Positions 6,065-52,241 of a DNA stretch of 56,753 bases are shown one piece after another. Position 1 is the stretch's first letter; every line of letters starts with the position of its first letter. A program made the position numbers and the translations under genes. The DNA is from a virus. The notes beneath the pieces are model-generated. The model did no database searches and was not told the origin of the DNA. It saw nothing but the letters and a program-made list of their open reading frames with translations. The DNA lies in the IMG/VR virus record IMGVR_UViG_3300032224_001432, positions 1-56,753 of that record; one strand, 5' to 3'.

Positions 6065-7060
6065 GTGAGTAATCCTATTACTGAGTACCTTAAATACGCT
6101 GCTAAGAAAAAGGTTCATGTGCATGAGTACGTGCGCAAGACAAAAAGCGGCACCACTATTGTGGACGAACATGATCGCTACGAAGAAAGCGGTAGTGCGG
6201 ACGACGTTATACTAGCGTCCGAGCAACGACAAATATCACAGCCCGAAGTAGAGTTCGACGCTGAGGAAGAGGTAGACACCGCACCAGAGCCTGCCGAAGA
6301 AATACCGCTGAAAAGACGTGCCACCTTAGAGAAAGTGGAGAAGACGTCTATTGGTACTCTGTCTAAAGAGCAAGAACTAGAGCTGTGGAAGAAATGGAAA
6401 GACGGCGGTAAAAAGCCTGCAGACCTGGAACCTCTTCTACAGAGCTTCAAGCCTCTTATTGCTGAAAAAATGAAGGCGTATAAGGGCCGTGTAAAGCTGA
6501 TACCAGACGCGGCTATAGAAGCGGAATTCCAACTTCGCTTCGTTGAGGCCCTAGATACCTTCGACCCTTCTAAGGCGTCCTTGTCTACGTATATTTATAG
6601 ATACTTGGATAAGGCCAAACGTTTCATAGCTGAGAATCAAAATGTCGGTAGAATACCGGAAACTCGTATCTACCAGATAAAGAAGTACCAAACTGCTGTT
6701 AGCGACTTGAACGAGGAACTATCTAGACCACCTACCCCAGTAGAAATATCTAAGAAGCTGGGTTGGCCAGTAGCTGAAGTAGAACGTATGGATTCTGAGT
6801 TACGCAACGATTTGCTATCTCAGGGGTTTGAGGACGACCCATACGCACTTACTCCGTCTAAGTCTGAAGAAGTCCTACGGCTGTTTAAATACGAGTTGTC
6901 GGGGCAAGAACGTGTAGTTTATGAGTACCTTACTGGCTACGGAAAACCTAGACTGGAGTCCACGGGCGAAATAGCCAGAAAGATGGGTCTCCAGGATTAC
7001 CAAATAAGCCGTTATAGAGACTCTATACAGAAAAAGCTACGCAAGTATCTGGAGGAATAA
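6065..7060 (+). CDS. RNA polymerase sigma-70-family factor
   Basis: 331 residues starting at GTG with GGAGGGG immediately upstream; no in-frame ATG fits better. Residues ~15-37 carry a basic motif (VHVHEYVRKTKSGT). Residues 40-95 are acidic linker. Residues ~100-195 match sigma region 1.2/2 (VEALDTFDPSKASLSTY, equivalent to the AvdkFdp..G.kFsTYA core). Residues ~196-255 match region 3 (GRIPETR, then RPPTPVEISKKLGW). Residues ~275-331 match region 4 with a helix-turn-helix (ESTGEIARKMGLQDYQISRY). It would give promoter recognition to a bacterial-type RNA polymerase, and the obvious partner is the single-chain polymerase at 46011-52241. It lies among structural genes, between the putative hub and a Gly/Ala-rich protein, which is unusual for a phage sigma factor and may mean late synthesis and packaging. 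Confidence 0.92.
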   Translation: MSNPITEYLKYAAKKKVHVHEYVRKTKSGTTIVDEHDRYEESGSADDVILASEQRQISQPEVEFDAEEEVDTAPEPAEEIPLKRRATLEKVEKTSIGTLSKEQELELWKKWKDGGKKPADLEPLLQSFKPLIAEKMKAYKGRVKLIPDAAIEAEFQLRFVEALDTFDPSKASLSTYIYRYLDKAKRFIAENQNVGRIPETRIYQIKKYQTAVSDLNEELSRPPTPVEISKKLGWPVAEVERMDSELRNDLLSQGFEDDPYALTPSKSEEVLRLFKYELSGQERVVYEYLTGYGKPRLESTGEIARKMGLQDYQISRYRDSIQKKLRKYLEE

Positions 7061-7061
7061 A

Positions 7062-7571: not shown

Positions 7572-7576
7572 CTAAC

Positions 7577-7786
7577 ATGGCTTCCGCAAAAGACGCAGAC
7601 GTCATAATTGAAGATCTAAAGCAACTGGTAACCAAGTTGGCAGATATCGAAAGGACTCGGTTGGTTCAGGAACGTAAGTTTTTAGAATCAATAAAGAAGT
7701 CTTCTTACGGATCTTCCACGCCTACTAAGGACCAGCAAACGGTTAAGGCAATAGAAGATGTCAAGAAGTTCCTTGGGGTGGTGTAA
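7577..7786 (+). CDS. Small coiled-coil protein
   Basis: 69 residues, almost entirely predicted helix with heptad-like spacing (IIEDLKQLVTKLADIERTR) and a C-terminal VKAIEDVKKFLGVV. The Shine-Dalgarno is weak, but it lies 5 bases after the previous gene and its TAA shares an A with the ATG of the next gene (TAATG), so translation is probably coupled. It may be a structural adaptor or chaperone; no family recognised. Confidence 0.65.
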   Translation: MASAKDADVIIEDLKQLVTKLADIERTRLVQERKFLESIKKSSYGSSTPTKDQQTVKAIEDVKKFLGVV

Positions 7787-8970
7787 TGAAAGCACAGATA
7801 GGGGTCCTGCGCAAATTTCACTGGTTTGATATTAACGGGGCCGTATCTTCTCCAGGACAAGTAAATGGTAAGTTGTATGTCGGTAATACTTTAGTTAAGA
7901 CCTTCACCAGTCTTACTCCACACGGCACCTTCCCCGATCTGTATATTTCCACTGAAGAGTATGCTGTAACCTCAGAGGAACCACACACATTTATCATATA
8001 TCAGAACACCACAGCACTAGACAGTGTTCTTGTGGAGTCTGGTCTCGTTCTAAGCCCAGAAGCAGAATACAATACCGCTCCGTCGTTAAGACTGTCGACG
8101 TCTATATATACATCCGGCGCAACCATAAGCGCATACTACTTAGCACCAAATGGCACGTTAAGCGTAGTTAAGACTGCTACTAAAGTTACAGCTAAAGCAG
8201 CGTATGTAATAAGTTCTCCACTAACACTGGACCAAATAGGTCCATGGCAAGTTATTTGGGTAGACGCCAGTATGGCGCGTTACGTACAAGAATACTGGGT
8301 TGGCAACCACCCAGGTCTTGAGACCGTCAAGGTGATAGCGCGTCTTAATATCTTAGAAGACAGCCCGAAGTATGTAGGCGCCACTGTCGTAGCATCGTCC
8401 TCTGATGGCACACAACTTGGACAGGCAGTTACCGATGCCAATGGTGCGGCCTTCTTTGACTTGGCTCCCGCTGACGTGACGTTCTCAATAATAAAGGCGG
8501 GTGCCGTATTCACCACTAATAACTTTGTATGTAAAGTGCGTGACACTAAGAAATACGCTGGAAGCAACATATTTCCTCTAGTAACAAACGCGTTCTACCC
8601 GACTACGACCTCGCCATCTATCGTTCCGCCGTTGTGCTCTGTATACGCCACATTGTTGGATTTTAGTGGCAGTCCGTTAAAGTTCGCTGATGTACTATTT
8701 TCTGTTCTTAGCTACCCGCAGTTGGCTTCTGGGGCAGGTGTCGTTGGAACGTCTATGGTAGCCAAGACCGACTCCAACGGTTACATGTCGGTCTCATTGG
8801 TGCAAGGCACTAAAGTGGAAGTAGCTATACCAGCAGCCTCGTTAAGACGCATCATAACCATACCGTCCAGCGTTGGACCTACCAACTTGCTGACGCTGGT
8901 CAGCGCCAGTGCTGATGTGTTCGACGCAGTATCATTGACTCTTCCGGCCGCGCCGCGGAGAACGCTATGA
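7786..8970 (+). CDS. Beta-sandwich (Ig-like / carboxypeptidase-regulatory-like) virion protein
   Basis: 394 residues, beta-rich throughout. Two C-terminal modules look like carboxypeptidase-regulatory/prealbumin-like beta-sandwich repeats: residues ~200-250 (GATVVASSSDGTQLG..VTDANGAAFFDL) and ~285-345 (LDFSGSPLKFADVLF..KTDSNGYMSVSL), each a substitution-tolerant strand pair followed by a T/KTDxNG turn. Such modules decorate phage baseplates and capsids and can bind cell-surface sugars. The GGGGTGGTG stretch supplies the ribosome site. Overlaps the next gene by ATGA. Baseplate or tail decoration is inferred from fold and position. Confidence 0.7.
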   Translation: MKAQIGVLRKFHWFDINGAVSSPGQVNGKLYVGNTLVKTFTSLTPHGTFPDLYISTEEYAVTSEEPHTFIIYQNTTALDSVLVESGLVLSPEAEYNTAPSLRLSTSIYTSGATISAYYLAPNGTLSVVKTATKVTAKAAYVISSPLTLDQIGPWQVIWVDASMARYVQEYWVGNHPGLETVKVIARLNILEDSPKYVGATVVASSSDGTQLGQAVTDANGAAFFDLAPADVTFSIIKAGAVFTTNNFVCKVRDTKKYAGSNIFPLVTNAFYPTTTSPSIVPPLCSVYATLLDFSGSPLKFADVLFSVLSYPQLASGAGVVGTSMVAKTDSNGYMSVSLVQGTKVEVAIPAASLRRIITIPSSVGPTNLLTLVSASADVFDAVSLTLPAAPRRTL

Positions 8971-9554
8971 GAGAACTTCTGCGCGATGCAATACGCGCGG
9001 CAGTCCGCACTTTTTACCCAGCAGCGATTTATTACTGGGTAATTTGGGCACACGTGTACAGATATTTCAATGATAGCAAGTATAAAGATATTGTCCTGAA
9101 TAAAGGGTTTTCTCCTACACGAGCACAGAACCTAATGGATCAGTTGCCGTGGAGTCCAGATACTTGGAAAGAGTTGTGGGACGTAGCCGCATCTCCTAAA
9201 AGATTCCAACGTGACCTGAATATCAGACTGCGGACTGGAATTATATCTTTAAGCGCTAGAGACTGTGACGACTTTGCGTGCTGGGCCTGCAACGTAGTTG
9301 CCGAGGAATATAACCCCCGCATGCTTCTAGTATGCTATCGCGACTACGCTAGCATGCTGCCGCGTGGCCATGTGGTATGTTACGTAGAAGTAGCTGGGCA
9401 AGGATTCCATATAGGAAATTGGGGCATGCGTGGACCTACTATCTGCTCTCAAGCAGAGGTTGCACACGCAGTTGCTGGGCAAAAAGCAGCCGAATTGATA
9501 GCGTTCGCTGTTCTGGACAAAGACCTAAGAGTTAAGAATATTAAGAGGGTGTGA
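8967..9554 (+). CDS. Transglutaminase-like cysteine peptidase-fold protein
   Basis: 195 residues. The signature is DCDDFACWAC with candidate nucleophile Cys100, then GHVVCY with His135, then GNWG with Asn151. This Cys-His-Asn/Asp order and the DCDDFA motif are typical of bacterial transglutaminase-like cysteine peptidases (papain-like fold). The N-terminal 35 residues are hydrophobic and aromatic and could be a membrane-contacting helix or buried packing helix. The gene lies between two Ig-like virion proteins with ATGA/TGATG overlaps, so it is probably a virion component acting on the envelope or processing another virion protein. The fold is fairly secure; substrate is unknown. Confidence 0.75.
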   Translation: MRELLRDAIRAAVRTFYPAAIYYWVIWAHVYRYFNDSKYKDIVLNKGFSPTRAQNLMDQLPWSPDTWKELWDVAASPKRFQRDLNIRLRTGIISLSARDCDDFACWACNVVAEEYNPRMLLVCYRDYASMLPRGHVVCYVEVAGQGFHIGNWGMRGPTICSQAEVAHAVAGQKAAELIAFAVLDKDLRVKNIKRV

Positions 9555-10489
9555 TGGCTAATGTAAAGGTTTCCGCCAGAACAGCATTACTACCCGGTGG
9601 TGCACCGGTAGCAGGCGTAAATATAGCGCTGTACGCTACGGTAGCCCCGTATGCCAAATTGACTTCAGCCTTCACTGCCGCTAACGGCGAAGCTGCTCTT
9701 GGAGATAGACCTGTAGGTACGTATGAGATATACGTAACCACCAACGCAGGACAAGTCTCTGAGAGTGGAAACAGAATCACGGTTACAGTGGTTGATGCAA
9801 ACCCACATGTATTCGACGTGATAATAAATACTAGTGCATTGCCCACGGCAACTGACGCAAAATTCTGTCGTTGCTCTGGGTACGTCGTTGACTTGTTTGG
9901 ACGCCCTGTGCCTTACGCGACAGTAGTTTTTTCTGAGTCAGCTATTCCTAATCTTCTGTATTCGGCTGGTACGGGAACTTCTAGAGTAGTGTCTCCTAAA
10001 CTGCTAACAGCAGACGCAGACTCTGCAGGATGGCTGTCTGTTGACTTACTCAAGAACGCCACGTATGCCGTTACGTTTTCAGGTTATGAAAACGCTACGT
10101 GGACGATAACCGTGCCTAATCTATCGTCATCATCATTACCAGACGTTTTATTTCCAGTAATATCGGGTGTGTATTACTCAAATAGCGGAGTTACTCTGAG
10201 CCCGTCTAGTGCTCCAACTCTTTCTATGAGTGTCGGTCAAGAAAAAGAACTAGTTATCACTACCCAATACTTGAGTGGCCTACAAATTTCATCTACGAAA
10301 GACGTTTCTTTTACTTCGTCCGATGAAAATAAACTGGTTGTACTATTGACGGACACCTCTATTACTCTGCAAGCTATTGCCGCCGGCGTAGTTACAGTAG
10401 GGGTCAGTAGACGTGAAGAAAAAGAAACGCAAGCCTCAATCTTCGACGCCCCCTCCGTTTGGGGGACTTTATCCGTCACAGTCTCCTGA
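9554..10489 (+). CDS. Ig-like repeat virion protein
   Basis: 311 residues from ATG 9554, which overlaps the upstream TGA (TGATG); GTG 9551 would add one residue. Three beta modules are visible. Residues ~1-90 form a carboxypeptidase-regulatory-like repeat (GGAPVAGVNIALYA, FTAANGEAALGDRPVGTYE). Residues ~105-195 form a second (GYVVDLFGRPVPYATVVF). Residues ~215-311 look like a bacterial Ig (Big-2-like) domain ending VWGTLSVTVS. It probably decorates the baseplate or tail and may bind surface polysaccharide. The next gene begins 77 bases before its end. Confidence 0.72.
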   Translation: MANVKVSARTALLPGGAPVAGVNIALYATVAPYAKLTSAFTAANGEAALGDRPVGTYEIYVTTNAGQVSESGNRITVTVVDANPHVFDVIINTSALPTATDAKFCRCSGYVVDLFGRPVPYATVVFSESAIPNLLYSAGTGTSRVVSPKLLTADADSAGWLSVDLLKNATYAVTFSGYENATWTITVPNLSSSSLPDVLFPVISGVYYSNSGVTLSPSSAPTLSMSVGQEKELVITTQYLSGLQISSTKDVSFTSSDENKLVVLLTDTSITLQAIAAGVVTVGVSRREEKETQASIFDAPSVWGTLSVTVS

Positions 10490-12527: not shown

Positions 12528-13397
12528 ATGCTAGACGTCCAGGCTATTTACTTACGAGATACTGTACCAGCGAAAATGGTTCGTGGCGTTCTGGCTTTGT
12601 CGTACGAGACGCCCACTGACGGCACACCGATAGAGGCCTTCGTAGATGGACAAAGCACCGTATTTCTGAATAATAAAAATGGAAAAACTTTTATAGTAGT
12701 TCCTCCTGTTGGCTCTAAACAGAGTGGTTGGTCTGTTGCTCTAAATATAGCCACTGCTGGCGGACTCATAGTTAGACGTGGTTTTGGCGCTGAAAGTAAA
12801 CCAGTGCTCGCACTGCTAATAGCGATAACCATAAAAAAGTCTGGTTCTATTGCCGAAGTGTGGGTCAACTCGCAGTCTAGAACGTTCACACAAACTAGTG
12901 GTGATACGGTTCTCTGCGAGCCACCGGACAACCTAACCTCTATAGACTCAATAGAAGTTCTTACTGATAGTCCCACAATAGGAACAGCTACCGGGTTTAC
13001 ATATGCACTACAAGACAACTTAAAAACCGTAGCCGGTGCGCAGAAACTGGTGTTTCAGTTTGTGAAGCTTCTCATGACTACGCAGGGCACTGACCTATTC
13101 CACCAAGCCGAAGGCGGTAATTTGCAAAAAATACCGGGCATGCCTTTAGAGCAGGACGGTGCTGGATCACTAGGCGCACAGATATTATTGGCTGTTAATA
13201 GAACTACTGCCTACATGATAGGCGGCCAGACATTAACATCCTTACCAGCCGAAGAGCGCCTAACTAAGGCAACCATAGGAAATCTAATCTACGATAGAAA
13301 CGACCCAACTAGCGTTACCGTTTCTTTACGGCTAGAGAACTTGGCCAGAGAATCAGCTGTATTCAATTTTTTGACTAAGACGGCCGGAGGAAACTAA
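12528..13397 (+). CDS. Baseplate wedge protein, gp25-like C-terminal domain
   Basis: 289 residues. An N-terminal beta domain (~1-160) precedes a C-terminal gp25-like domain (~165-289). The latter shows LKTVAGAQKLVFQFVKLLMT, then a Gly-rich loop EGGNLQKIPGMPLEQDGAG, then the helix LPAEERLTKATI and final strands SVTVSLRLENLA. T4 gp25 and its relatives form the core of the baseplate wedge and nucleate sheath attachment. The next gene is the J-like wedge, its classical partner. The stop and next ATG overlap (TAATG). The N-terminal extension is larger than in minimal gp25 proteins. Confidence 0.8.
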   Translation: MLDVQAIYLRDTVPAKMVRGVLALSYETPTDGTPIEAFVDGQSTVFLNNKNGKTFIVVPPVGSKQSGWSVALNIATAGGLIVRRGFGAESKPVLALLIAITIKKSGSIAEVWVNSQSRTFTQTSGDTVLCEPPDNLTSIDSIEVLTDSPTIGTATGFTYALQDNLKTVAGAQKLVFQFVKLLMTTQGTDLFHQAEGGNLQKIPGMPLEQDGAGSLGAQILLAVNRTTAYMIGGQTLTSLPAEERLTKATIGNLIYDRNDPTSVTVSLRLENLARESAVFNFLTKTAGGN

Positions 13398-16300
13398 TGG
13401 CTACGATTTCAGCTCGCGCTGAATTAGCGCAGTTCATGGTCGAACGTCTAGCTGAGCTAGACCCTACTCTGGCTACAACCGCCGGATCTCGTATTTATAC
13501 GGTGGTAATAAATCCACTGCTGAACAGACTAGGAGAAGATCCATTAGCTACGGATATGGAGTCCTTCATCCTAGCACGTATGCGAGATGTCTATCCTGAT
13601 ATAGATATCAATTCGCCCGGGTCAGTAGTTAGAGATATTTTTGTAAATCCTCTGCTGCTCTTGATGACACCGCTGCGAGAGGAAATAGCACATCTACGTA
13701 GGCAACAGTCGCTAGCGGACTATACCACGTTGTCAGACGTTGAGATGGACGCTCTGCTGTCCAATGTCCTAGCGTCACGTAATACGGGTTCTTTTGCTTA
13801 CGGCACTATACGCGTGTTCTTTTCCACTACCCGTGTAGTTGGCGTAGACGCCTCTATCCTATTTACCACGTCTGCAGGACAGGTATTTGTAGCTGATGAG
13901 ACTCGCCAATTCTTACCATCAGAGATGGTACGCCAAGGAAATCTTTGGTACATAGAAGTTGCTGCGAGATCTCAAACCCCGTCTACTTCATCCAACGTAG
14001 CGGCGGGCACTCCGTTTACCGTCACAGGCATAGATGGAGTAGTTAGAGCCGCCAACCCCACGGCCATCTCCGGCGGCGTTGACTCAGAGACTAATACACA
14101 GTTTTACGAGAGAGCGCTTACTGCCATAACTGAGCGCTCTCTAAATACTGAACGCGGTATCCAATCGTTTATATTCGACAACTCCACCAACATTGTCTCT
14201 GTAGATGTTGTCGGATTTGGCGACCCTTTAATGCAGCGCGACATATTGACTGCCAACGCCCCGGTTCAAATTACTGGTGTACCCGGCGGTGTGCCGTTTC
14301 CAGCTATTACCGGTGTTCCGGTAACAGTAAATCCTAATCAGGTGCATATAGGCGGAGCCACTGACATCTACGTTAAGACTGGACAAACTGCGTCCAACAC
14401 TGCCGCCGGACTATACCTTACGTCCGACAACATATCTGGTACCGTAAAAACTATTTCCATCACAGCGGGTAGCAACGTAGTTACTTCAACAGGTCTGGGC
14501 ACTTTACTAGGATTCTCTATTCCAGGAGTGTCGGTAATACCTTCTGGTACGTACACTTTAGAGCTAGAGAACCTAGACGCTAGCGGCATATCGCCATTAG
14601 CCGTCAAGATAGTAGCTGCTACTGGCGCCAATACTGTACGGGTGGATTCTGCCTTCGCCGGATTCGCTGGAGTTATGTCTGGCGTGCGTGCCCGTTTACA
14701 AACTTATGTGGACGTAGAGCTCACCTACCCAAAGAGAGTGTTGCAGGACGGTTTGATAAACACCGTTGCGGGCTCTCCCACTGTTACGTTGGTTCCTCCT
14801 AGTGTAAATACGTTTGTAAACAACCCCGCTAGCGAAGAGATCTATTTAGAGATACTGGGCACTGCGCTAGCCGGTGAATATAAAATACAAACCAAATTAG
14901 CTAGCCAGCTTGTGCTGAGCCAGGTATTGGGTATTACGCTTAATAATGTGCAGTACCGTATCTATACCAAGCAAGACGCTAAGTTCAATTTACCTATCAC
15001 TCAGTTAAAGAGCGTAACGATAAGCGATGGCGGCACGGGGGTTAAAATACCCTATGCCGATCCTATACATATCTCAGTAGCTTCTCCAGCCTCTAGACTA
15101 GCCAATCCAATAACATACGCTGATTTTGGTGCCTGTTCCGTCACAGGGACAACGTTATCGTGTACAGCGCCTAACTCGTTTCTTGTTCATGGATTACAGC
15201 AGGGAGATCTGGTGTACATACCAGAGATGATCCCTCTAAGCCAGAGTCCTTACTTCTATATAGTCAATATTACAGGAGCGACAACTATACAGCTAGACCA
15301 CGCTGTAGTTGGTGGTCCCATCGCTACTACTCAACTACTAATAGGTAGTCCTACGGTTAGCAGCACCACGTTGACTTTTATGGACCCCACCTTCTTCGAG
15401 GCTAAGAACACCTCAGTAGTGTTTACGCACACTAACGCTGCGGGAGAGGTTTACGATTTTGAACCTTCTAAAAACGTGGAAGGTTATCTTTATGCCCCAA
15501 CTGCGCTATCCACAACGTTTGTTGTAGACCCTGCAGTCAATACTCTTGTCAGTGCCGGTACGCATGACTTGCATGACATGGGCGTAAAAACTGGAGATAT
15601 CTTTGAGATACAGAGCATAGTACTAGACTCAGGTACATTTAACGCGGCGGAAGACGCAAACGTAGACGTAGGCGGTGCTCCTAATGTAGGACTATCAGTT
15701 CTGAACGTTACAGTAGATGGAATCGTAAAGCCTGTATTTTTCTCACAGATCAATCCTAGCCTAACGTCAGTCGTCTCCACTCTAAATCAGCAGCTAGGAG
15801 CTGACTTATATGCTGAACGGATAACTGTAGGCGCTAATAAGCAGCTACGCATATTTTCTAGAAAACACATAGTTTTAGCCAACGGCGTCGGCTCACCGTT
15901 AACCCACTTAAAATTGACGGGCGCTACTGACAACAGCCCTGCGGGCGTGGGCGGTGAGTTTTCAATCAGTGCCGTAGCAGCCAACGGATCTTCCGTTACT
16001 CTGTCCTCAGGAATAGGAGCCAGTGGACTGTCCAAGTCTGTATTAGTAAGAATAAAAAGACTGGGGACGCAGTACATATACCCGGCTAATATGACCTTGC
16101 AGGACAATGGTCTGTATACGGCTACTATTCAAGTGGCGTCGAAAATACCTATTTCTTTTGGCAAAGTACTAGCGAACGCAGAATGCGTTGGCTCTGGGTA
16201 TGTCTCTAGATACGGATACACGTTCAACGTAGCAAACCCAGAGTACGCGTTTTCTATTGGAGAGCAGCTATTTCTGCGAGTTTACAACCTAGTATTTCCA

Positions 16301-28816: not shown

Positions 28817-28819
28817 GAA

Positions 28820-35373: not shown

Positions 35374-35393
35374 TCTACACCTCGGTAGAGGTA

Positions 35394-35422
35394 GGGAGGG
35401 AGAGTTGCTAGCTCTCCCTCCC
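35394..35422. other. Perfect 11-bp stem-loop between SSB-like gene and polA
   Basis: GGGAGGGAGAG (35394-35404) is followed by a 7-base loop and CTCTCCCTCCC (35412-35422). It lies between the stop of the candidate SSB gene (35449) and the polA start (35373). On the minus strand the stem is followed by TACCTCTACC, with no T tract, so it is not a standard terminator. It could protect the 3' end of the upstream mRNA, attenuate expression between the two genes, or mask the polA ribosome site, which starts about 8 bases downstream. Confidence 0.6.
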
Positions 35423-35448
35423 ACCGTTATCGCTCTATGTCACATGTA

Positions 35449-37630: not shown

Positions 37631-37638
37631 GGTGGCCT

Positions 37639-39081: not shown

Positions 39082-39082
39082 T

Positions 39083-40935: not shown

Positions 40936-42274
40936 TCTTTAGGCTCCTCTTAAGACTGGCGCATAAGGCCTTGGATACCGTAATGTTTACATCTTCGTAT
41001 ACCACAACAATGGGTGGTTTTTTCGTGTGATAATTACGCTCTACACGACCTCGGCATTGCTGAAATGCCCCTGGGTCTTTGAATGGCGTCACTAGGAATA
41101 ACGTATCTAATGCCGGGACATCTAACCCTTCTTTAGCTAAAGAAAAGGTAGCAACTGTTACATCCGACTCCTCTATTATTGGTAGTCGTTTGTCGTGCTT
41201 TATTCCGCCATGCACCATTCCAACTTTTTTTCTTGGTAACTCTCTAGCTAACTCAGAACTCAAACTCTCTACATGTGCCACGCTATGCGATAAAACTAGT
41301 ACTTTTCTACCAGCCGCAAGCGCTCCCTTGATATCCGCTTTTATTGTTTTATTACGAGAGTTATCCGTGGCGAGTATGTCATAAAGCTTACTAATGATCA
41401 ACTCCCCTCTTTTCGTTATCTCTCTATCATCAACACTTCTGGTAGGCATGTACTTAAAGTACACCTCGGCGTTTATCTCAGAGCTTTTGTCCGAGTAGAA
41501 GACGCCGCCTATGTGAGCGTAATAAACTTCTTCTAGTCCGTCACTTCTATCTGTCGTGGCGGTGAGACCAAACCTAGCTCCATAGAACAGGTCCGCCACG
41601 CTAACAAAAGTACGCGCACTCATATGGTGGCACTCATCGAAAACTACCGTGCCAAAACGCATACGCACATCCATTGGTATGCTGTCTATGCGAGAGGTAA
41701 CTGTTTGTAGCATGGCGATAACAAGTGGCTTATCCCATTGCTGCTTCTCGGCCTTTACCACGCCTATCTCATCGTCAGTCATTCCTAAAAAGGTCTTTGC
41801 TCTATCCGCCCACTGTTCCATCAGCGCGCCATTGCTTACTAGCACTACCGCTGGATACCCTCGTTGAGCAACCTTCTTCAGACCTAGTACGGTCTTACCG
41901 CCACCACAAGCGATACTCAAAATACCATTGTCTGCTTTCTCAAATGCAGCCCAAGCGTCTTCTTGCTTTTTATCTCTGGGAGTTATCTCTTTCCTAAACT
42001 TAACATTCTCCCAGGTAATATTCTTCGTAATATCGGTGTAGCCAGTTTCAGGTACTGACTGCAGTCGCGTCATATGTCTGGGCAGACGTATATGATTTTT
42101 TTCTACTGTCGCTAGATGAATAACTAGGTCGATATTTCTAGAGTATCCTGTCACGCAGGCAGCGCGTAAAAGCGCTTCTTTGTTAGAAACACTCTCGATG
42201 GGCACCCATTTAGAGGCAGAAATAACAGCTTGTCCCTTAAATGAGACGCCGCCGTCTTGCTCTGGTACTTGCAT
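40898..42274 (-). CDS. SF2 DEAD/DECH-box helicase (UvsW/XPB-like)
   Basis: 458 residues from ATG 42274, chosen for AAGGAG seven bases upstream; in-frame Mets at 42289 and 42295 lack a good site. Motifs: Q-like region, Walker A IACGGGKT (121-128), DECHH (213-217), TATTDR (239-244), and motif VI QQCRGRVERN near 420. Architecture resembles UvsW/XPB-type branch-migration helicases. It is the first gene of the replication block and would remodel forks or recombination intermediates, and could unwind R-loops. A short N-terminal domain (~90 residues) precedes the core. Motifs are intact. Confidence 0.9.
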   Translation of the reverse strand: MQVPEQDGGVSFKGQAVISASKWVPIESVSNKEALLRAACVTGYSRNIDLVIHLATVEKNHIRLPRHMTRLQSVPETGYTDITKNITWENVKFRKEITPRDKKQEDAWAAFEKADNGILSIACGGGKTVLGLKKVAQRGYPAVVLVSNGALMEQWADRAKTFLGMTDDEIGVVKAEKQQWDKPLVIAMLQTVTSRIDSIPMDVRMRFGTVVFDECHHMSARTFVSVADLFYGARFGLTATTDRSDGLEEVYYAHIGGVFYSDKSSEINAEVYFKYMPTRSVDDREITKRGELIISKLYDILATDNSRNKTIKADIKGALAAGRKVLVLSHSVAHVESLSSELARELPRKKVGMVHGGIKHDKRLPIIEESDVTVATFSLAKEGLDVPALDTLFLVTPFKDPGAFQQCRGRVERNYHTKKPPIVVVYEDVNITVSKALCASLKRSLKNEGRKFKTTKIK

Positions 42275-42293
42275 TTTTGTCTCCTTCATGGGC

Positions 42294-42302
42294 ATTATAC
42301 CA
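42294..42302 (-). promoter_or_regulatory. Extended -10 promoter for the replication block
   Basis: On the minus strand the sequence reads TGGTATAAT: a perfect TATAAT preceded by TGG, the extended -10 form. No recognisable -35 lies 16-18 bases upstream, consistent with extended -10 use. Start would fall near 42287, giving a ~13-15 base leader carrying AAGGAG before the helicase ATG. This is host sigma-70-like, so it may be an early promoter read by host polymerase or by the phage enzyme. The 60-base divergent gap also holds the start region of the plus-strand gene at 42335, whose promoter is not identifiable. Confidence 0.6.
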
Positions 42303-42334
42303 AGTAAGCGTACGTTCTTGCGATGAGGAAACCG

Positions 42335-43333
42335 ATGGGAAGCAAACTTACCACTCCCCCGATTCTCGACCACTATGACGATCATGGGGCAGCGTTTCTA
42401 CGCGACCTAGGTTCCCTTCCTGTCCCAGACTTTGTCAAGACAGCTGCAGATATGACTAGTGCCCAAAAGCACGAAGCAGACTTTGCACTAGTTGCCGACA
42501 CAGTCAACGGACGTGAGTATAAGTTCCCTGTAGTAGACAAGGGGAATACCTTCCTGTCCGCAATGTACTTTGAGAAGACGGCACACGCTCTACCAGACGA
42601 CCTACGCAAGCAGGCGGCCACGGTGTTGGCAGACGCTCTTAAAGACTACGGCTTTGCCGTACCGTCGTACATAACCGACGCCGTGTTGTCTGAAAAGACC
42701 GCTTCTGCTCCCATGCTGGCAATAGAGGTAGAGTACGCTAATAAGAAGAATGTTAATCCAGCGCAAGAGCTGGTTGACGAGTTTGCCCAGATACACCCAA
42801 TGGCTCGTCCTGAAGCAGCGAGAATGCTGAAGCAGGCTGGCGTGGTTCTACCAGAGGCCATAGCTTGCTACGCACGTGACGCAGTCGGCTCGGACTTTGA
42901 GGCGTCGATCATAGCACGCGCACGCTTTATGCTGCCCGAAGAGGCAGAGAGCATCAAAGATCTAGTGAAAGTAGCTCACCAAGTGTCTGTAGATGAACTG
43001 GCGAGCGAACTGTATGAAATCGACCAGGAGTTTGGTCTTACCAGATTCTACGATACCAAGTTGGCCGACCCGTACCGTTCAATACTAGGAACTGAGCTGC
43101 AGAGCGTAAGAGAGAAGACCGCCAAAGCTACATCGATTACCATCGATGATAAAGTTTTCACTGAAGATGCAATCAGAGATCGCGCAGCGAAGTTTGGCGA
43201 TAAGATTGACGATCTGTTTGGCGATATGGTCTCAACTCAATTAGTGGTTGCTCCTATAGAAGTTCTTGGTAGCCTACCGGTACCTCATCAGCAGGCGCTA
43301 GCGAGGATACTAGATGGCTCAGCTACCGAGTAA
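42335..43333 (+). CDS. Unknown protein, first of the portal block
   Basis: 332 residues from ATG 42335 (GAGGAA four bases upstream; an in-frame ATG at 42323 has no ribosome site). Mostly helical with repeated FVKTAAD- and KTASAP-like segments, many Ala and Glu, and several Tyr/Asp pairs. Rich in acidic clusters toward the C-terminus. No catalytic motif. Co-oriented and overlapping with the gene before the portal, so probably a head or tail assembly component. Not recognised. Confidence 0.7.
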   Translation: MGSKLTTPPILDHYDDHGAAFLRDLGSLPVPDFVKTAADMTSAQKHEADFALVADTVNGREYKFPVVDKGNTFLSAMYFEKTAHALPDDLRKQAATVLADALKDYGFAVPSYITDAVLSEKTASAPMLAIEVEYANKKNVNPAQELVDEFAQIHPMARPEAARMLKQAGVVLPEAIACYARDAVGSDFEASIIARARFMLPEEAESIKDLVKVAHQVSVDELASELYEIDQEFGLTRFYDTKLADPYRSILGTELQSVREKTAKATSITIDDKVFTEDAIRDRAAKFGDKIDDLFGDMVSTQLVVAPIEVLGSLPVPHQQALARILDGSATE

Positions 43334-43972: not shown

Positions 43973-45799
43973 ATGGCTGAGACACAGTCGATTACAACTA
44001 CACTATCTAGAGCTAAGACTGTCGGTAGACCGGAGAACTACTATCCGTCCCCGTTCTTTGATCTTGCGCAGACTTATATGCCTGCGAACATCAAAGACAC
44101 CTTTGAGTGGTGTGCCTACTATTACCAAACCAATCCGATAATAAACGGCGTAGTAACAAAGTTATCCTCGTACGCCATAACAGATCTTTTGTATGGTGAC
44201 CCCGTCGAGTCCTCCACTTTTAAGAAGTTATTCGAGGGACCTCTCAATCTAAGAACTTTCTTAGTGGAATTTGGCCTTGACCGTAACTGCTTTGGCAATG
44301 CCTTTGCTTCAGTAGTGTTTCCGTTCAAAAAGATCCTAGGATGCCGCAGCTGCGGAAAACTCATAGAGGCTACGAAGGCTGACTACACGTTCAGATCTGG
44401 TAAGTTCATCCTCAAGTGCGCTAACTGCAAGTTTGAGGGAGAGGCTAGGGCTAAAGATGAGACTATACCCGCGGCCAACCAGATAAGGTTAAAGCGTTGG
44501 TCCCCTAGACAAATCACTATACGCACCAACGAGAGCACCGGCGAATGCCGTTATTTTTATTCTCTATCTCGATCAGCACGTAACGAGATATTACTAGGTA
44601 ATAGAAAGACGCTTGAGTCTACGCCACAAGCGTTCATCGATGCCGTCCACGGAAACAAGCTGATTGAGCTAGATCCTACCAAGTTGTTCCATTCACGTAG
44701 ACCTAGTATCTCACGTGATATTACGGACGCTGGCTGGGGCACTCCCCTCATTCTTCCAGTACTAAAAGACATCTTCCTTCTACAAGTTCTTAAGAAGTCC
44801 CAGGAAGTTGTCGCTATGGAGTACATCCTGCCTTTCCGCAGTTTGTATCCAGAAGTTCGTGCCGACGGTAATAACGTCTATGGTCAGGTAAATCTGACCG
44901 CATGGCAAAACAGCGTGAAGCGCGAAATTACCCAGTGGAAGAAAGACCCTGGGCACATCGCCGTATTCCCTGTACCGATAGGACAACAAGTTATGGGCGG
45001 ACAAGGCCGCTCAATGCTTCTGCACCAAGAAGTGCGTGTCTACAGCGATCAAATAATCGCCGGCATGGGCGTACCTACCGGTTTCTACTACGGTGAGGCT
45101 CTATACTCTGGCGCTAGCGTAAACCTACGCGCTATGGAAAATGAGTTCCTAGCGTACCGTCAAGATATGCAGCACCTAGTAGAGTTCTTCGTTAAGAGTA
45201 TCGCGTATGGCCTGAGCATCCAGCCGATAGACGTCAAGTTCCGCGAGTTTAAGATGGCGGACGACCTAGCGCGTGCTGGTATGGAATTCAACATGGCCAA
45301 CGCTGGACGCCTAAGCTGGCGTACGTTCCTAAGCTCACGTGGTTTCGACTACGACCACGAGAACAAGCTAATCATAAAAGAGCTTTCGGACGCAGCGGAG
45401 AAAAACAAGATCAATGCTAAGGCGCAAGCAGCTGTTCAAGCCATGATGGGTCAGGAGCAGGCTAAATCGCAAAGCGCTACACAGCGGCTAATGGCAAGAC
45501 TACAGGGAGCGGCTCCACAAGCAGCCCCTCCTCCGGGTCAGCCAGGACAGCCACCCGAAGCAGGACCTCCACAGCAGGGAGCAACGCAATCTCCACAGCA
45601 GGAGGCTTCTGGCATAGCGCAGCAACTGGCCCAGATGCCAGAAGTACAGCGCTACCAGACTTTAGCCAGAATGCGACAAGAGAATCCTGATCTGTACCAG
45701 ATGGTAAACACGATGTTGCAGGGTGGCGGTCCACAACCCGGGCAGCAGCTGCCGGAGCAGCTGCCACCTCGGGCCGAAGGATTTAATCGTCAGCTATAA
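43973..45799 (+). CDS. Portal protein with zinc-ribbon-like insert
   Basis: 608 residues; GAGG ribosome site. Residues ~40-120 and ~170-450 carry portal-like sequence (DTFEWCAYYYQTNPIING; DPGHIAVFPVPIGQQVMGGQ; YSDQIIAGMGVPTGFYYGEA). The portal forms the ring through which DNA enters and leaves the capsid. Between them, residues 120-155 hold two Cys pairs (C124/C127, C149/C152) separated by a 21-residue loop, like a zinc ribbon inserted in the wing or clip. The last ~110 residues are Gln/Pro/Gly-rich (PPPGQPGQPPEAGPPQQ) then a helix. Capsid and terminase genes are not in the window. Confidence 0.88.
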   Translation: MAETQSITTTLSRAKTVGRPENYYPSPFFDLAQTYMPANIKDTFEWCAYYYQTNPIINGVVTKLSSYAITDLLYGDPVESSTFKKLFEGPLNLRTFLVEFGLDRNCFGNAFASVVFPFKKILGCRSCGKLIEATKADYTFRSGKFILKCANCKFEGEARAKDETIPAANQIRLKRWSPRQITIRTNESTGECRYFYSLSRSARNEILLGNRKTLESTPQAFIDAVHGNKLIELDPTKLFHSRRPSISRDITDAGWGTPLILPVLKDIFLLQVLKKSQEVVAMEYILPFRSLYPEVRADGNNVYGQVNLTAWQNSVKREITQWKKDPGHIAVFPVPIGQQVMGGQGRSMLLHQEVRVYSDQIIAGMGVPTGFYYGEALYSGASVNLRAMENEFLAYRQDMQHLVEFFVKSIAYGLSIQPIDVKFREFKMADDLARAGMEFNMANAGRLSWRTFLSSRGFDYDHENKLIIKELSDAAEKNKINAKAQAAVQAMMGQEQAKSQSATQRLMARLQGAAPQAAPPPGQPGQPPEAGPPQQGATQSPQQEASGIAQQLAQMPEVQRYQTLARMRQENPDLYQMVNTMLQGGGPQPGQQLPEQLPPRAEGFNRQL

Positions 45800-45816
45800 A
45801 ACGTTCGATGGAGAGC

Positions 45817-45981
45817 ATGATCGATATCGTACCAGTCTCCGTCGAAATCCCCGTCAGGCATCACTTGTGCCCGCCGATGCCCGCCGATGCCATTCTCGAC
45901 ATCGTCATCAAACTGTGTGAACATTTCTTTTTCCTCAATAACTCGATAATAGCTACCGAGCACTATTCTTATTACAAATAA
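45817..45981 (+). CDS. Possible 54-residue protein upstream of RNAP
   Basis: Starts at ATG 45817 with GGAG close upstream and runs 54 codons to TAA. It begins IDIVPVSVEIPVRHHL and is aromatic-rich toward the end (HFFFLNNSI). It contains a 10-base tandem repeat that is not a multiple of three. A competing 44-codon frame on the minus strand (about 45816-45950) begins with ATG preceded by GAGGAAAAAG. Either, both or neither may be real; the interval of 211 bases is otherwise the longest gap in the right block, and holds the RNAP leader. Confidence 0.35.
   Translation: MIDIVPVSVEIPVRHHLCPPMPADAILDIVIKLCEHFFFLNNSIIATEHYSYYK
45868..45891 (+). repeat. 10-bp tandem repeat upstream of RNAP
   Basis: TGCCCGCCGA occurs twice in tandem, followed by a third partial copy (TGCC). 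Its GC-rich composition contrasts with the AT-rich leader that follows. Probably slippage in a small ORF or spacer; a protein-binding site is possible but untested. Confidence 0.7.
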
Positions 45982-46010: not shown

Positions 46011-49000
46011 ATGGCCAATAGCTTGCTCAACCCCGAGGGCGCGATGAAATCGCTCGAAGACGGGACGATCAACGCAGTCAGTTCGTTCTTCCCAGTAGAA
46101 GGCAAGAAGCACAAACTGGTAGCCACAAATATCTACGCAGGTAGCGACGTCGATCACGAAGATGTTGCTAGCCAGAAGAAAGCCAAGTTGCGCGGTCGCA
46201 CGTGGTCTGTGGGCGTATACGCTGACATGGACATGATCGACAAAGAGACTGGTAAGAAGATAGACAGCGTCAAGGGGATGAAGCTACTCAATCTCCCTAA
46301 GCTTACTAAGCGCTACTCCTTCATAGTTGACGGCGTTGAGTACCAAGCCGACAACCAATGGCGCCTTAAATCTGGTGTATATTCCAGACAGCGTGCTAAC
46401 GGTGAACTAGAAGCACAGTTCAACTTGGCGGAAGGTCGCGGCTTTCGCATGGACTTCTACCCAGCCAAACGCCAGTTCCTGCTGCGCTATGGTACGGCTA
46501 ATATCCAATTGCTTCCTGTACTACGAGCCCTCGGAGTTAAAGACTCAGAGATGCGTCAGTCATGGGGCGACAAGGTATTCGACGCCGTAGCCGCCAACAA
46601 GTCTCGGGGAGACGTACAGAAACTAGCCAAAGCGCTAGACTCTAGATTCTCTGGTGACGACAACGCGGCAGCTACACTTATAAAGGACAAGTACAGCCAA
46701 TCTGTATTACTGCCAGATACAACCAAGCTCACTCTTGGGAAAGAATACAATAAGGTCGAACCAGACACGCTTCTACGCGCATCTACTAAACTACTGAATA
46801 TTAACCGTGGTACGGAAGAGACTGACAACCGTGATTCACTACGATTCAAAGAACTGTGGACTATCGAGGATCACATTCCAGAGAGAATTATTAACTCTGG
46901 TAAACGCGCACAGTTTAAAATAAAGAACAACCTAGATAGAAAAGACAACATACGCGACGTAGTAACTACTGACATCTTTAATGTGCCAGTAAAGGCGTAC
47001 TTTACTACTACGTCACTGGCGCAGATGTCTCCGCAGCTAAACCCTGTTGAGATGGCCGCCGGTTTCTTACGTACCACCATTATGGGACAAGGCGCTATCA
47101 GTAGTGATCAGGCTATCTCTCTAGATGCCAAGATGATCGACCCAAGCATGTTGGGTGTTGTGGACCCAGTCCATACACCAGAAGGCAACGCAGGTATCAG
47201 TACGCACTTGACGCTAGGAACTGGCAAGCGCGGCAAAGATCCGACCATAAAGGTGTACGACACTAAGTCTAAGAAGCTTGTTGAGAAAACACCTACAGAG
47301 CTAGCCGCAGGCACTCTTGCTTTCCCAGATCAGTACGAGGAAAACAAAGACGGTCCTCCACACCCTAGACATGATCTGGTAACCGTCATACCAAAGGGCG
47401 GTGGTGACCCAACACAGGTCAAGCCTAGCGAAGTCGACTACATCATGCGTTCGCCTAAATCGATGTTCTCGGTTGTGGCTAACCTAGTTCCTTTCTTACC
47501 ATCGGACCAAGCCAACAGAGCTGGTATGGCGACCCGCCACATTAGTCAGGCTATCTCGCTAAAAGAGCGCCAAGCTCCTCTAGTGCAAGTAGCTGCCGCC
47601 ACGGGTAATCCTAAGATAGACACTTGGGAGAAAATCGTAGGTAAGACGGCGTCTAGCCAAGCCCCTGTAGACGGAACTATCTCTGAAGTAACTAATGAGA
47701 AAATAGTTATTCAGGGAGAAGACAAGAAGAAGTACGAAGTCGGTCTATACGATAACTATCCTCTTAACGAGAAGAAGTCGTACATAACCAGCCTTCCTCT
47801 TGTTAAAGCCGGCGATAAGGTAAAGAAAGACGATATTATCGCTGATACCAACTTCACCGATAAGGGCACTCTGGCACTGGGTAGAAACCTAAAGGTAGCC
47901 TACCTAGACTGGCAGGGAGCTACGTTTGAGGACGCTATCGTTGTAAGCGAGAAGGCTGCCAAAGACTTGACCAGTCTTCACCAGAGCAAGCCACGTGTCT
48001 ACTTAGACAAGGGTATGTCTCTTGGTCTATCCAGATTCAGAGCTAACTTCCCCGGTGTTGTAACCGACGAGAACGCAAAGAAGTTAGACGAAAATGGCGT
48101 TATCAAGAAAGGACAAGTTGTAAAGCCTGGCGACGTAATAATGACTGTCCTCAAAAAGACAGAGCCGTCGCCAGAACAGGTAATGTTAAAGGGCATCCAC
48201 AAAGCTCTAGCTAAGCCGTACAAAAACTCATCTGTTGTATGGGATTCCGACTACAGCGGCACTGTCACAGACGTAGCGGTTAACGGAAATGAAGTAGTAG
48301 CTTACGTCACCACCGAGGAGCCTCTTGAGATAGCTGACAAACTATCAAATAGACATGGCGGTAAGGGCGTCGTAAGTATGGTAGTTCCTACTGAGGAAAT
48401 GCCTAAGAACGCCGCTGGTGAGCCCATAGATATCATCGTGTCTCCGATGGGTGTCCCCGGTCGTATCAACATCGGTCAGGTATTAGAGACCATGTTAGGC
48501 AAGGTAGCCCATGAGAAAGGCACTACCTTTGCCGTAGACAACTTCCAGACAGAGAACGGTAAGAAGATCGTTCAGGTGGAAGGACACTACAGAACAGTTA
48601 AGGGCGAGGGCGGTCAGACCAAAGAAGTATGGGTCAAGCCGCACACGCGAGAGCTAGGCTACCAAGACATAGTCAAAGAAGTATTAGCTCAGAATAAGGT
48701 GGACGATACTGAGGAACTGTTTGACCCGCAGACCAAGAAGAGCTTCGGCAAGGTTCTAACGGGCTTTCAGTATTTCATCAAGCTTACCCACCAAGTAGAC
48801 AAGAAGATGGCTGGTCGTAGCCACGGCTACGGTAATGACTACGACGCGACACTAATACCCAAGGGTGGTGGTGATGCTGGAGCCCAGAGATATGGCGAGC
48901 TAGGTCTTTATGCCATGTTGGCGCACGGTGCTACTAACGAACTGCGCGATACAATGACGTACAAGTCTGACAAGGCGCAGCAAGATGTGTGGACAGCCAT

Positions 49001-52000
49001 ACAAACAGGCGAACCGCTGCCAGCGCCTAAAAACGCTTTTGCCTATGATAAATTCGTAGCGTATTTGCGTTCGGTAGGTCTCGATATCGAGAAAGACGGA
49101 AACGAGATGCGTCTCGTTCCGTTTACCGACGATGACATCAAGAAGGTAAGCAATGGCGCTCTTACAGACGCGTCTAAGGTCTTGCGTGGCAAAGACCTAA
49201 GACCAGAGCCGGGCGGTCTATTTGACGAGAAAATAACTGGTGGACCTGGCGGTAAGAATTTCGCACACATACCACTGGAAGAGCGTATCCCTAATCCAGT
49301 ATTCGAGCGTGCGATTATGTCGCTGCTCGGTGTCACTGGTAAAGAGTACGACTCTATTATTAGCGGGGATATGAAGATAGATGGCAAGACAGGTCCGTCT
49401 GCCATAGTCGACGCACTAGCTAAGATTAACGTGGACAGCGAACTAAAAGATGCCAAAGAAGATCTAAAAACTGCCAGAAGAAGCAACTTAGACGCCGCAT
49501 ACAAGCGTGTTAAGTATTTGACGGCAATAAAGAACATAGGCAAGAGCGCTGATAAAGCATACAGCCTAAGCGCCATTCCCGTCATTCCTCCAGTGTTCAG
49601 ACCTATCACGTCTATGGAGGGCGGCGATCTAAATGTTGATGGTGTCAACCTTCTATATAGAGATGTGGCGATGCTCAACGAGCAGTACGCATCTAGCAAG
49701 AAGGTTCTGCCTGAATCGGCACTAGCCCCTATACGTAAAGATACGTACGAAGCGGTTAGCTCTCTAATAGGCATAGACTCCAGACAAGCCGGTGTCACAG
49801 CCAATGGAGAAGTGAAGCCTCCAGGCATATTAACCATTTTGTCAGGGCGCAGCTCTCCAAAAGAAAGCTACGTCCACACGAAGCTGATGGACCGCCGTCA
49901 GGATCTAACAGGTCGTTCTGTTATTACTCCTGACCAGACTCTAGGCCTCGATCAACTTGGTTTGCCCAAAGACATTGCTTACGAGATATACCGTCCGTTT
50001 GCTGTCTCTGAGCTAACCAAAATGGGTTACACACCACTGGCAGCTAGAGAGGAGCTAGCTAAGCGCACTCCTCTTGCAGAGCGCGCCTTAGAGATCGCAA
50101 CGCAGAAGCGTCCTGTGTTCTTTAAGCGCGACCCCGTACTACATAAGTTCGGTATCATGGCCTTCTACCCAAAGCTGCACGAAGGCAAGAGCATAAAGAT
50201 CCACCCTCTAGTTACGGGCGGCTTTAATGCTGACTTCGATGGCGACACCATGGCGGTATTCGTACCAGTGTCATCACAAGCTGTTGACGACGCCAAGAAG
50301 ATGTTGCCATCAAACAACCTATTCAACTTCGGCTCTGGTAAAGTAGAGTACCAGCCAAGCCTAGGTGGACAGTTGGGACTGTATCTATCCACACAGTTCG
50401 GTAAGGACAGTGGAAAGGTGTTCTCCTCAATGAAAGACGTAGTAGATGCGTCTAACAGAGGAGAAATTGCGCCAACCGACGTCATAAAGGTCGATGGCAA
50501 AAAGACGACTGCAGGAAGAATACAAATCTATGCGGCGCTGCCAGATAACGTACGTACTGACGACATGCTTACTGACCCAGGGTTTACTCTGGAGAAGAAG
50601 AACCTTCAGAAGGTGATGAAGTCGGTAGCCACTAAAGCACCGGCAGAGTTTGCCGTTACGATGGATAAGCTGAAGAACATTGGCTTTAGACATCAGCACG
50701 ATACTGGCTTCTCGTACTCTGCCGCCGACTTCGATACCTTGTCGGAACTACGTGATAGCGTACTAAAGCAGGCTAACGCCAAGGCCAAGTTGGTACACAA
50801 CTCGTCTCTGTCACAAGCTGACAAAGATAAGAAACTTGTGCAGATCTACACAGACGCCACTGTAGAGATGACCAACAAGGCTAAGCCTCTGCTGGACAAG
50901 AGCGGTAGCAAGCTGTACGCCATGAACAAGGCAGGCACCAAGCCAGCGTGGGAACAGGTTCAGCAAATGATCCTGGCCCCAATGCTACTGGCAAATGCTC
51001 GCGGTCGTGTCATTCCAGCCCCCGTTACTCGTTCTTACGCAGAGGGTCTAGATACTGCCGGTTACTGGACCGCAAGCTCAGGTGCCAGAAAGGGACTCAT
51101 AAACAAGGTCCAGTCTGTACAGAAACCCGGTGTTTTATCTAAGCAAATAATAAACGCCACTGTACCGTACTCTGTTACGGAGAACGATTGCGGAACTACA
51201 AAGGCTGTGGCTTTGGACATAGACGAGCCGGACGTAATTGGCCGCGTTCTGCCTAAGGACGTGACTGCTGGTGGGCACACCTACAAGGCCGGTACGGTTC
51301 TTACTACCAACGTGGTAGATAAGATGAAGCAGGCCAAAGTTAGTAGAGTCGCAGTGCGCTCCGTGCTTAAGTGCCAAGCCAAGCAAGGTCTATGCCAGAA
51401 ATGCTTTGGTGAGGGCGTCGATGGCAAGTTCCCAGACATAGGCACAAACCTAGGTGTTCTGGCGGGACAGTCCATCGGTGAACGCGGCACGCAGCTAGCC
51501 ATGAAAGAGTTCCACCTAGGCGGCTTGGCTGGAACTCAAAGCCGTGTTGCCTCTGGTGTAGACAGAGTTTTCGAGCTTCTCAAGATGCCTGAAACGCTGC
51601 CCAACGCAGCCACGCTGTCTACAGTTAGTGGTAAGGTGCAAGCTGTAAACAAGAGTCCTCTAGGCGGTTTTGATATTAAGGTCGCTGGAGAAACCCACTA
51701 CGTTCCAGGTGGTAGAGAGCCTGCTGTAAAGGCAGGAGATGACGTAGAGAAGGGAGCTCGTCTGTCAACAGGCACCATCGATCCTCGTGAACTGATGGAC
51801 CTGACAGGCACAGACCAGGTGCAGCGCTACATGACGGATGAGTTACATGGCGCGTACGCATCCGAAGGTATCAAGCGTAGAAACGCTGAGGTCGTAGTAA
51901 AGGCTATGACTAATCTGTCCAGAGTTGTAGACCCAGGAGATTCTGACGAACTTATTCGCGGTGATATGGTGTCTACCAATTACGCGGAGGCGTTGAACAG

Positions 52001-52241
52001 AGAAAAGGGCTTCAAAAATCCTATCGTAACTGAACCAGTTCTACGTGGTTTAGAGACGTTACCGCTAGACAGAAGCACAGACTGGATGGCGCGTCTGCAA
52101 TACAGAAAACTAAAGGATACCTACCTGCGTGGCGCGGCTGAGGGTTGGAGATCCGATATCCATGGTATGTCGCCAGTACCTGGGTTAATCTACTCTTCTG
52201 AGTTCGGAAAGCCGCCCTCTGGCAGCAAGAGTCCTTACTAA
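46011..52241 (+). CDS. rpoBC: Single-chain RNA polymerase: fused beta and beta-prime subunits
   Basis: 2076 residues; AGGAG ribosome site. Beta part (~1-1000): VDPVHTPEGNAG (H388), SDQANRAGMATRHISQAISL, LGRNLKVAYLDWQGATFEDA, the lysine motif DKLSNRHGGKGV (K777, K785), VSPMGVPGRINIGQVLETML and the KMAGRSHGYGN C-terminus. Beta-prime part (from ~1060): LRPEPGGLFDEKI, DRRQDLTGRSVITPDQTLGL, catalytic loop NADFDGDTMAV (Asp1408, Asp1410, Asp1412), bridge helix SSGARKGLINKVQ and trigger loop QSIGERGTQLAMKEFHLGG. A four-Cys zinc site (C1727, C1788, C1795, C1798) keeps the 7/3 spacing of the last three cysteines in bacterial beta-prime. The beta-prime N-terminal zinc finger is absent and the trigger-loop region is compact. 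The gene sits between the portal block and the baseplate spike, and its TAA shares an A with the next ATG. It presumably transcribes phage genes with the sigma factor at 6065-7060. Confidence 0.97.
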   Translation: MANSLLNPEGAMKSLEDGTINAVSSFFPVEGKKHKLVATNIYAGSDVDHEDVASQKKAKLRGRTWSVGVYADMDMIDKETGKKIDSVKGMKLLNLPKLTKRYSFIVDGVEYQADNQWRLKSGVYSRQRANGELEAQFNLAEGRGFRMDFYPAKRQFLLRYGTANIQLLPVLRALGVKDSEMRQSWGDKVFDAVAANKSRGDVQKLAKALDSRFSGDDNAAATLIKDKYSQSVLLPDTTKLTLGKEYNKVEPDTLLRASTKLLNINRGTEETDNRDSLRFKELWTIEDHIPERIINSGKRAQFKIKNNLDRKDNIRDVVTTDIFNVPVKAYFTTTSLAQMSPQLNPVEMAAGFLRTTIMGQGAISSDQAISLDAKMIDPSMLGVVDPVHTPEGNAGISTHLTLGTGKRGKDPTIKVYDTKSKKLVEKTPTELAAGTLAFPDQYEENKDGPPHPRHDLVTVIPKGGGDPTQVKPSEVDYIMRSPKSMFSVVANLVPFLPSDQANRAGMATRHISQAISLKERQAPLVQVAAATGNPKIDTWEKIVGKTASSQAPVDGTISEVTNEKIVIQGEDKKKYEVGLYDNYPLNEKKSYITSLPLVKAGDKVKKDDIIADTNFTDKGTLALGRNLKVAYLDWQGATFEDAIVVSEKAAKDLTSLHQSKPRVYLDKGMSLGLSRFRANFPGVVTDENAKKLDENGVIKKGQVVKPGDVIMTVLKKTEPSPEQVMLKGIHKALAKPYKNSSVVWDSDYSGTVTDVAVNGNEVVAYVTTEEPLEIADKLSNRHGGKGVVSMVVPTEEMPKNAAGEPIDIIVSPMGVPGRINIGQVLETMLGKVAHEKGTTFAVDNFQTENGKKIVQVEGHYRTVKGEGGQTKEVWVKPHTRELGYQDIVKEVLAQNKVDDTEELFDPQTKKSFGKVLTGFQYFIKLTHQVDKKMAGRSHGYGNDYDATLIPKGGGDAGAQRYGELGLYAMLAHGATNELRDTMTYKSDKAQQDVWTAIQTGEPLPAPKNAFAYDKFVAYLRSVGLDIEKDGNEMRLVPFTDDDIKKVSNGALTDASKVLRGKDLRPEPGGLFDEKITGGPGGKNFAHIPLEERIPNPVFERAIMSLLGVTGKEYDSIISGDMKIDGKTGPSAIVDALAKINVDSELKDAKEDLKTARRSNLDAAYKRVKYLTAIKNIGKSADKAYSLSAIPVIPPVFRPITSMEGGDLNVDGVNLLYRDVAMLNEQYASSKKVLPESALAPIRKDTYEAVSSLIGIDSRQAGVTANGEVKPPGILTILSGRSSPKESYVHTKLMDRRQDLTGRSVITPDQTLGLDQLGLPKDIAYEIYRPFAVSELTKMGYTPLAAREELAKRTPLAERALEIATQKRPVFFKRDPVLHKFGIMAFYPKLHEGKSIKIHPLVTGGFNADFDGDTMAVFVPVSSQAVDDAKKMLPSNNLFNFGSGKVEYQPSLGGQLGLYLSTQFGKDSGKVFSSMKDVVDASNRGEIAPTDVIKVDGKKTTAGRIQIYAALPDNVRTDDMLTDPGFTLEKKNLQKVMKSVATKAPAEFAVTMDKLKNIGFRHQHDTGFSYSAADFDTLSELRDSVLKQANAKAKLVHNSSLSQADKDKKLVQIYTDATVEMTNKAKPLLDKSGSKLYAMNKAGTKPAWEQVQQMILAPMLLANARGRVIPAPVTRSYAEGLDTAGYWTASSGARKGLINKVQSVQKPGVLSKQIINATVPYSVTENDCGTTKAVALDIDEPDVIGRVLPKDVTAGGHTYKAGTVLTTNVVDKMKQAKVSRVAVRSVLKCQAKQGLCQKCFGEGVDGKFPDIGTNLGVLAGQSIGERGTQLAMKEFHLGGLAGTQSRVASGVDRVFELLKMPETLPNAATLSTVSGKVQAVNKSPLGGFDIKVAGETHYVPGGREPAVKAGDDVEKGARLSTGTIDPRELMDLTGTDQVQRYMTDELHGAYASEGIKRRNAEVVVKAMTNLSRVVDPGDSDELIRGDMVSTNYAEALNREKGFKNPIVTEPVLRGLETLPLDRSTDWMARLQYRKLKDTYLRGAAEGWRSDIHGMSPVPGLIYSSEFGKPPSGSKSPY

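Follow-up and report, generated by a model that had tools for sequence, protein, structure and literature searches.

We found that a 56,753-bp virus fragment (IMG/VR record IMGVR_UViG_3300032224_001432, hereafter the window) encodes a single-chain RNA polymerase (RNAP) and a sigma factor among its portal and tail genes, and that the orthologues of both proteins had been detected in purified particles of a distant relative, Salmonella phage Arash (PMC10585845). It is therefore likely, although inferred by homology for this phage, that the virus carries its own sigma-dependent RNAP into the cell. The observation in the preliminary description, that the sigma and RNAP genes both lie in virion gene blocks and not in the replication block, was confirmed, with one correction. 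The overlapping start attributed to the RNAP gene is that of the downstream spike gene, as the RNAP start overlaps nothing and follows the portal after a 211-nt gap, whereas the RNAP stop codon shares one base with the spike ATG (TAATG), an overlap that recurs in nearly all close relatives.

Features of the 56,753-bp window, with evidence
Position	Strand	Feature	Evidence
1009-2325	+	tail/baseplate protein, relative of Arash gp6 (detected in Arash virions)	blastp 22%, E 2e-5 to Arash; 41% to G001; 16 unique peptides in Arash MS
2541-5861	+	hub-like tail protein directly before sigma; counterpart of the hub/cell-wall-hydrolase gene of D69 and Arash	34-36% to G001/G002; E 3e-4 to D69; order kept in relatives
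6065-7060	+	sigma-70-family factor, virion-block type; 331 aa, GTG start	Pfam Sigma70_r3 25.6 bits (cut-off 25.3); PHROG 351 sigma E 1.1e-16; AlphaFold2 and Foldseek; 33-34% to Arash gp10 and D69
6104-6187	+	N-terminal His-Arg hairpin of sigma (residues 14-41)	found only in the window clade
7786-10489		Ig-like and CarboxypepD_reg-like proteins
13397-16756	+	baseplate J protein, relative of Arash gp13 (detected in Arash virions)	Pfam Baseplate_J E 3e-8; 28% to Arash gp13, E 2e-16
27270-27665		ORF downstream of the promoter-like site
27754-27773	-	early-strand promoter-like site, GGTATAAG-gatta-TG
27869-42385	-	replication block (helicase, UDG-like, DnaB, primase, Pol A, RecA-like, nucleases), free of sigma and RNAP
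43973-45799	+	portal protein, relative of Arash gp204	PHROG portal E 2e-5; 27% to Arash gp204, E 4e-75
45808-45981	+	57-aa ORF between portal and RNAP	Arash and D69 have a 90-100-aa gene there
45955-45978	-	degenerate copy of a conserved early-strand promoter in the portal-RNAP gap (approximate position)
46011-52241	+	single-chain beta-beta' RNAP, 2076 aa	Rpb2_6 E 3e-56; Rpb1_2 E 4e-26; PDB matches; alignment
48555-48671	+	RNAP insertion (residues 849-887) resembling the sigma N-terminal hairpin
52233-52241	+	RNAP C-terminus (Pro-Tyr)
52241-53356	+	predicted baseplate spike (gpV/VgrG-like)	model similarity to gpV/Mu/R2-pyocin/VgrG spikes
53367-56753	+	tail-fibre-like protein with higher G+C	weak Por_Secre_tail match; no homologue found in the closest relatives compared

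To evaluate the identity of the two proteins, we combined profile searches with structure prediction. The sigma just passed the Pfam threshold for region 3 and matched region 2 only weakly, but its AlphaFold2 model (mean pLDDT 71, about 85-92 in the sigma2 helices) aligned with solved sigma factors over residues 88-331, and sigma2 alone aligned at 2.3-2.6 A with Z of about 10.5-11; the alignment extended to residue 331 with uncertain domain placement. The RNAP is one open frame with beta domains first and then beta' domains, carries NADFDGD at residue 1406, and was readily matched to bacterial RNAPs, best to Thermus beta' (E 5e-116). The spike model (pLDDT 56 overall, about 90 in the N-terminal OB domain) resembles the membrane-piercing spikes of phage Mu, R2 pyocin and VgrG, and is confident only in that OB domain. 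An alpha subunit (PF01000) was not found in the window or in eight relatives, whereas the control was positive.

Next, we examined whether the two gene positions are conserved. The RNAP as a single query found nothing in IMG/VR, and the hub protein as a tblastn query found no phage record, whereas an alignment of RNAPs retrieved 79 IMG/VR loci. Two IMG/VR relatives of 180-181 kb (G001 and G002) carry single-chain RNAPs 57-58% identical to that of the window, with one RNAP each, while Arash and Vibrio phage D69 have the same genes at about 30% identity with the RNAP split in two. The placement is more than chance: the portal lies just upstream of RNAP on the same strand in 78 of 79 loci, the exception having no upstream sequence, and a hub and/or tail gene of this family precedes sigma in 23 of 23 sigma loci, although in a few the two are swapped or one was not detected. 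All 17 RNAP-bearing records of at least 150 kb carry this sigma, while four shorter records lack it. Some loci are near-duplicates, so the counts are not all independent. In seven relatives (loci L070, L071, L074, L087, L078, L072 and L086), the fused RNAP frame is about 2490-2870 aa, with 400-800 extra residues that could be an intein.

To assess packaging, we reanalyzed the published LC-MS/MS data of Arash virions (PMC10585845), in which the RNAP parts gp206 and gp216 and the sigma gp10 are orthologous to the two window genes and lie in the same gene order. The beta-containing gp206 was the most detected protein (3516 spectra, 128 unique peptides), the beta' part gp216 the fifth (1210 spectra), and gp10 (467 spectra) was covered 100% by 24 unique peptides. 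Through dividing spectra by length for 72 of the 116 listed proteins, we obtained 2.31, 2.00 and 2.00 spectra per residue for gp206, gp216 and gp10, respectively, compared with 1.51 for the portal and 4.34 for the capsid, and the sigma had the highest unique-peptide density of those tabulated. Spectral counts are only semi-quantitative, and the Arash authors themselves offer carry-over of abundant proteins as an alternative while also mentioning early transcription as a possible role, an idea that is thus theirs. A helicase-annotated protein, gp217 (L002:31091-32509), is as well represented in the Arash virions as the RNAP, and a homologue lies a few kb after RNAP in window-clade relatives (L073:23164-24540).

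These data bear on the possibility that both proteins are simply abundant late products that serve late transcription and co-purify with particles, their place in virion operons reflecting late expression and not packaging. In favor of this, the particle list contains enzymes unlikely to be structural, including ribonucleotide reductase, ligases and primase, and many enzymes were likewise found in particles of Yersinia phage YerA41 (PMC7354516). Nevertheless, sigma and RNAP exceed the portal per residue, whereas several replication enzymes have only two or three unique peptides; Arash's second sigma gp196, encoded outside the virion block, is not listed although the nearby helicases gp193 and gp197 are; and the dominant promoter motif lies on the early strand, not the late one. 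We therefore regard this explanation as unlikely.

A shared early promoter motif had been predicted beforehand, and a strand-specific family was found in relatives, with early and late strands assigned from gene content and not from expression data. In Arash, GGTATAAG occurs 30 times on the early strand and once on the late strand within the surrounding consensus (T)GGTATAAGtAAaGTGTAaA, and the general form is GGTATAAG-N5-TG; 26 of the 30 sites have an annotated start within 200 nt and 22 within 60 nt, against a random mean of 2.6. Similarly, D69 has GTTATAAG 18 versus 1 and a further relative, G006, has GGCATAAG 10 versus 0, while four window-clade genomes have GTATAAG-N4,5-TG 12, 11, 10 and 8 times on the early strand against 3, 2, 4 and 2 on the late strand, with Markov means of 0.9-1.6, although these genomes share orthologous sites. 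The window, for which k-mer enrichment on its sequence alone gave nothing as it is too short, has only one clean non-coding copy, at 27772(-), 107 nt before the next ORF. In 19 of 22 close relatives (L073, L081, L061, L077 and others), a further copy lies mostly about 36 nt before the RNAP start codon and points away from it, antisense to the portal gene and towards the replication block; about 1-2% of random stretches of that size hold such a match, and the window holds a degenerate form there. Arash and D69 also carry a second sigma outside the virion genes (L002:10486-11523 and L004:9861-10637) and a separate late-strand motif, CTAAAATA-like. A second sigma type is found in Arash/D69-like lineages but was sought and not found in the window clade, and the early-strand motif persists where only the virion-type sigma is detected.

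The promoters were first read as lacking a −35 element, which would have fitted the missing flap tip of the RNAP (see below), but column information showed a weak −35-like box at about −36 to −28, so this reading was dropped. As TGGTATAAG resembles an extended −10 element and this box is present, the sites could also be ordinary host sigma-70 extended −10 promoters, in which case early transcription would be by host RNAP and the packaged enzyme would have a later or minor role. We consider this improbable, since G at −7, where sigma70 promoters have T, is fixed across hosts as different as Salmonella, Vibrio and unknown marine bacteria; TATAAT itself is rare and not strand-biased in Arash (6 versus 5); and the conserved block runs on to the presumed start site.

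Another possibility is that the packaged sigma redirects the host RNAP, as assumed for jumbo phages without their own RNAP, while the phage RNAP works without it or in another phase. Phage sigmas are generally thought to recruit host RNAP (PMC7598289), and the flap-tip segment of beta, which in bacteria docks sigma region 4, is missing in all five phage RNAPs compared, while the sigma model spans regions 2 to 4. However, sigma and RNAP co-occur in the 17 near-complete records and have near-equal length-normalised counts in Arash particles, and core-contact positions differ from bacteria on both sides. The clamp helices that in bacteria bind sigma2 are kept, but the E. coli beta' R275 position is L, V or I in 39 of 41 RNAPs, while the sigma70 Q406 position, which faces it in bacteria, is I, L or V in 21 of 21 sigmas. 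This possibility thus appears unlikely as well, although pairing of the phage sigma with the phage RNAP and not the host's remains an inference. The tryptophan pair that sigma70 uses in melting is not kept in the phage sigma, and the rifampicin-contact positions differ, with E. coli D516, H526 and S531 being P, G and T in the window, from which rifampicin tolerance is predicted.

Taken together, we favor with fair confidence an explanation in which the fused RNAP and its sigma, as core and promoter-specificity factor of a virion RNAP, would be made late together with portal, hub and spike proteins, built into the particle, delivered with the DNA, and start transcription on the early strand from promoters of the form (weak −35-like box)-GGTATAAG-N5-TG, before any phage gene has been expressed. 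Our analysis establishes what the two genes are and where they lie, the conservation of both positions, their co-occurrence, the promoter family in relatives, and, from published data normalised here, the presence of both orthologues in Arash particles, whose RNAP is however split and only about 30% identical. In contrast, packaging in this phage, ejection, assembly of this sigma with this RNAP, recognition of the motif by that holoenzyme, rifampicin tolerance and independence from the host polymerase are inferred, the last supported only indirectly by the early-strand promoter family and the altered rifampicin-contact residues. The interpretation in the preliminary description, that a single-chain enzyme plus a dedicated sigma may be packaged and ejected to free early transcription from the host polymerase, is thus partly supported: the packaging half is well supported by homology, and its comparison with phiKZ is right in kind but not in membership.

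Compared with known systems, phiKZ/AR9-type virion RNAPs are likewise multisubunit-type enzymes carried in particles for early transcription, but phiKZ-type enzymes consist of at least five polypeptides, lack sigma homologues and come with a second, non-virion RNAP, whereas the window encodes a single chain and a bona fide sigma, and only one RNAP was found in each of the two ~180-kb relatives, the window itself being a fragment. In crAss-like phages beta and beta' are also fused in a giant RNAP ejected from the particle, but that RNAP is highly divergent from cellular subunits (PMC7481178), unlike the one found here; N4 vRNAP, also giant and ejected, is a T7-like, ~3,500-residue enzyme of another type, and neither is known to carry a sigma. 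The multimeric-RNAP-encoding Caudovirales (mReC; PMC7481178) encode beta and beta' homologues clearly related to cellular RNAP on contigs with portal and baseplate genes, as does the window, which may or may not belong to that exact clade; that paper does not mention sigma or virions, and a search for the Gp23-family major capsid protein (PF07068) gave no match in nine records but also none in the controls. YerA41 particles were reported to hold RNAP subunits and a late-expressed sigma, proposed to be injected (PMC7354516), but that RNAP is made of three separate early-expressed subunits encoded in the replication region and about 25% identical. Also among the closest known systems are Arash and Vibrio phages D69/D148/D181, which share the orthologous RNAP after the portal, the orthologous sigma after the hub/hydrolase gene and TATAAG-type early-strand promoters, but whose RNAP is split into beta plus N-beta' and C-beta' and which carry the second, non-virion sigma.

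Virion RNAPs are already known, and packaged RNAP plus sigma was reported, briefly, for Arash and YerA41. Reviews, however, divide large phages into those with their own RNAP but no sigma and those with a sigma, regarded as a partner of host RNAP, but no RNAP, while this lineage has both, in virion operons, with a promoter family to match. What would differ is a packaged cell-type core with its own sigma and promoters, which would be a minimal cellular-type holoenzyme (two proteins, no alpha subunit found) delivered by a virus, a question made directly testable by two proteins, a named promoter and sequenced isolates (Arash, D69). It also bears on how the deep-branching phage RNAPs recognise promoters.

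In the window clade only, the sigma N-terminus carries VxAHxRR-GKxVxVxxHxRE, and the RNAP carries a similar insertion that is absent from the other lineages. Profile-profile comparison gave a probability of 88% and E 3e-6 for this single comparison, and each profile found the other protein as its best non-self hit in most of the genomes. However, the motif is short and both copies map to the same branch, so this is suggestive only. A more far-reaching reading, in which a widespread phage lineage packages and ejects a complete cellular-type holoenzyme of one fused core chain plus its own sigma, and in which the matching hairpins of the window clade serve to assemble or package the two together, is possible but, taken as a whole, doubtful. 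The RNAP C-terminus is also unusually constant, ending in Pro-Tyr in the window clade and in Arg-Tyr in Arash and D69.
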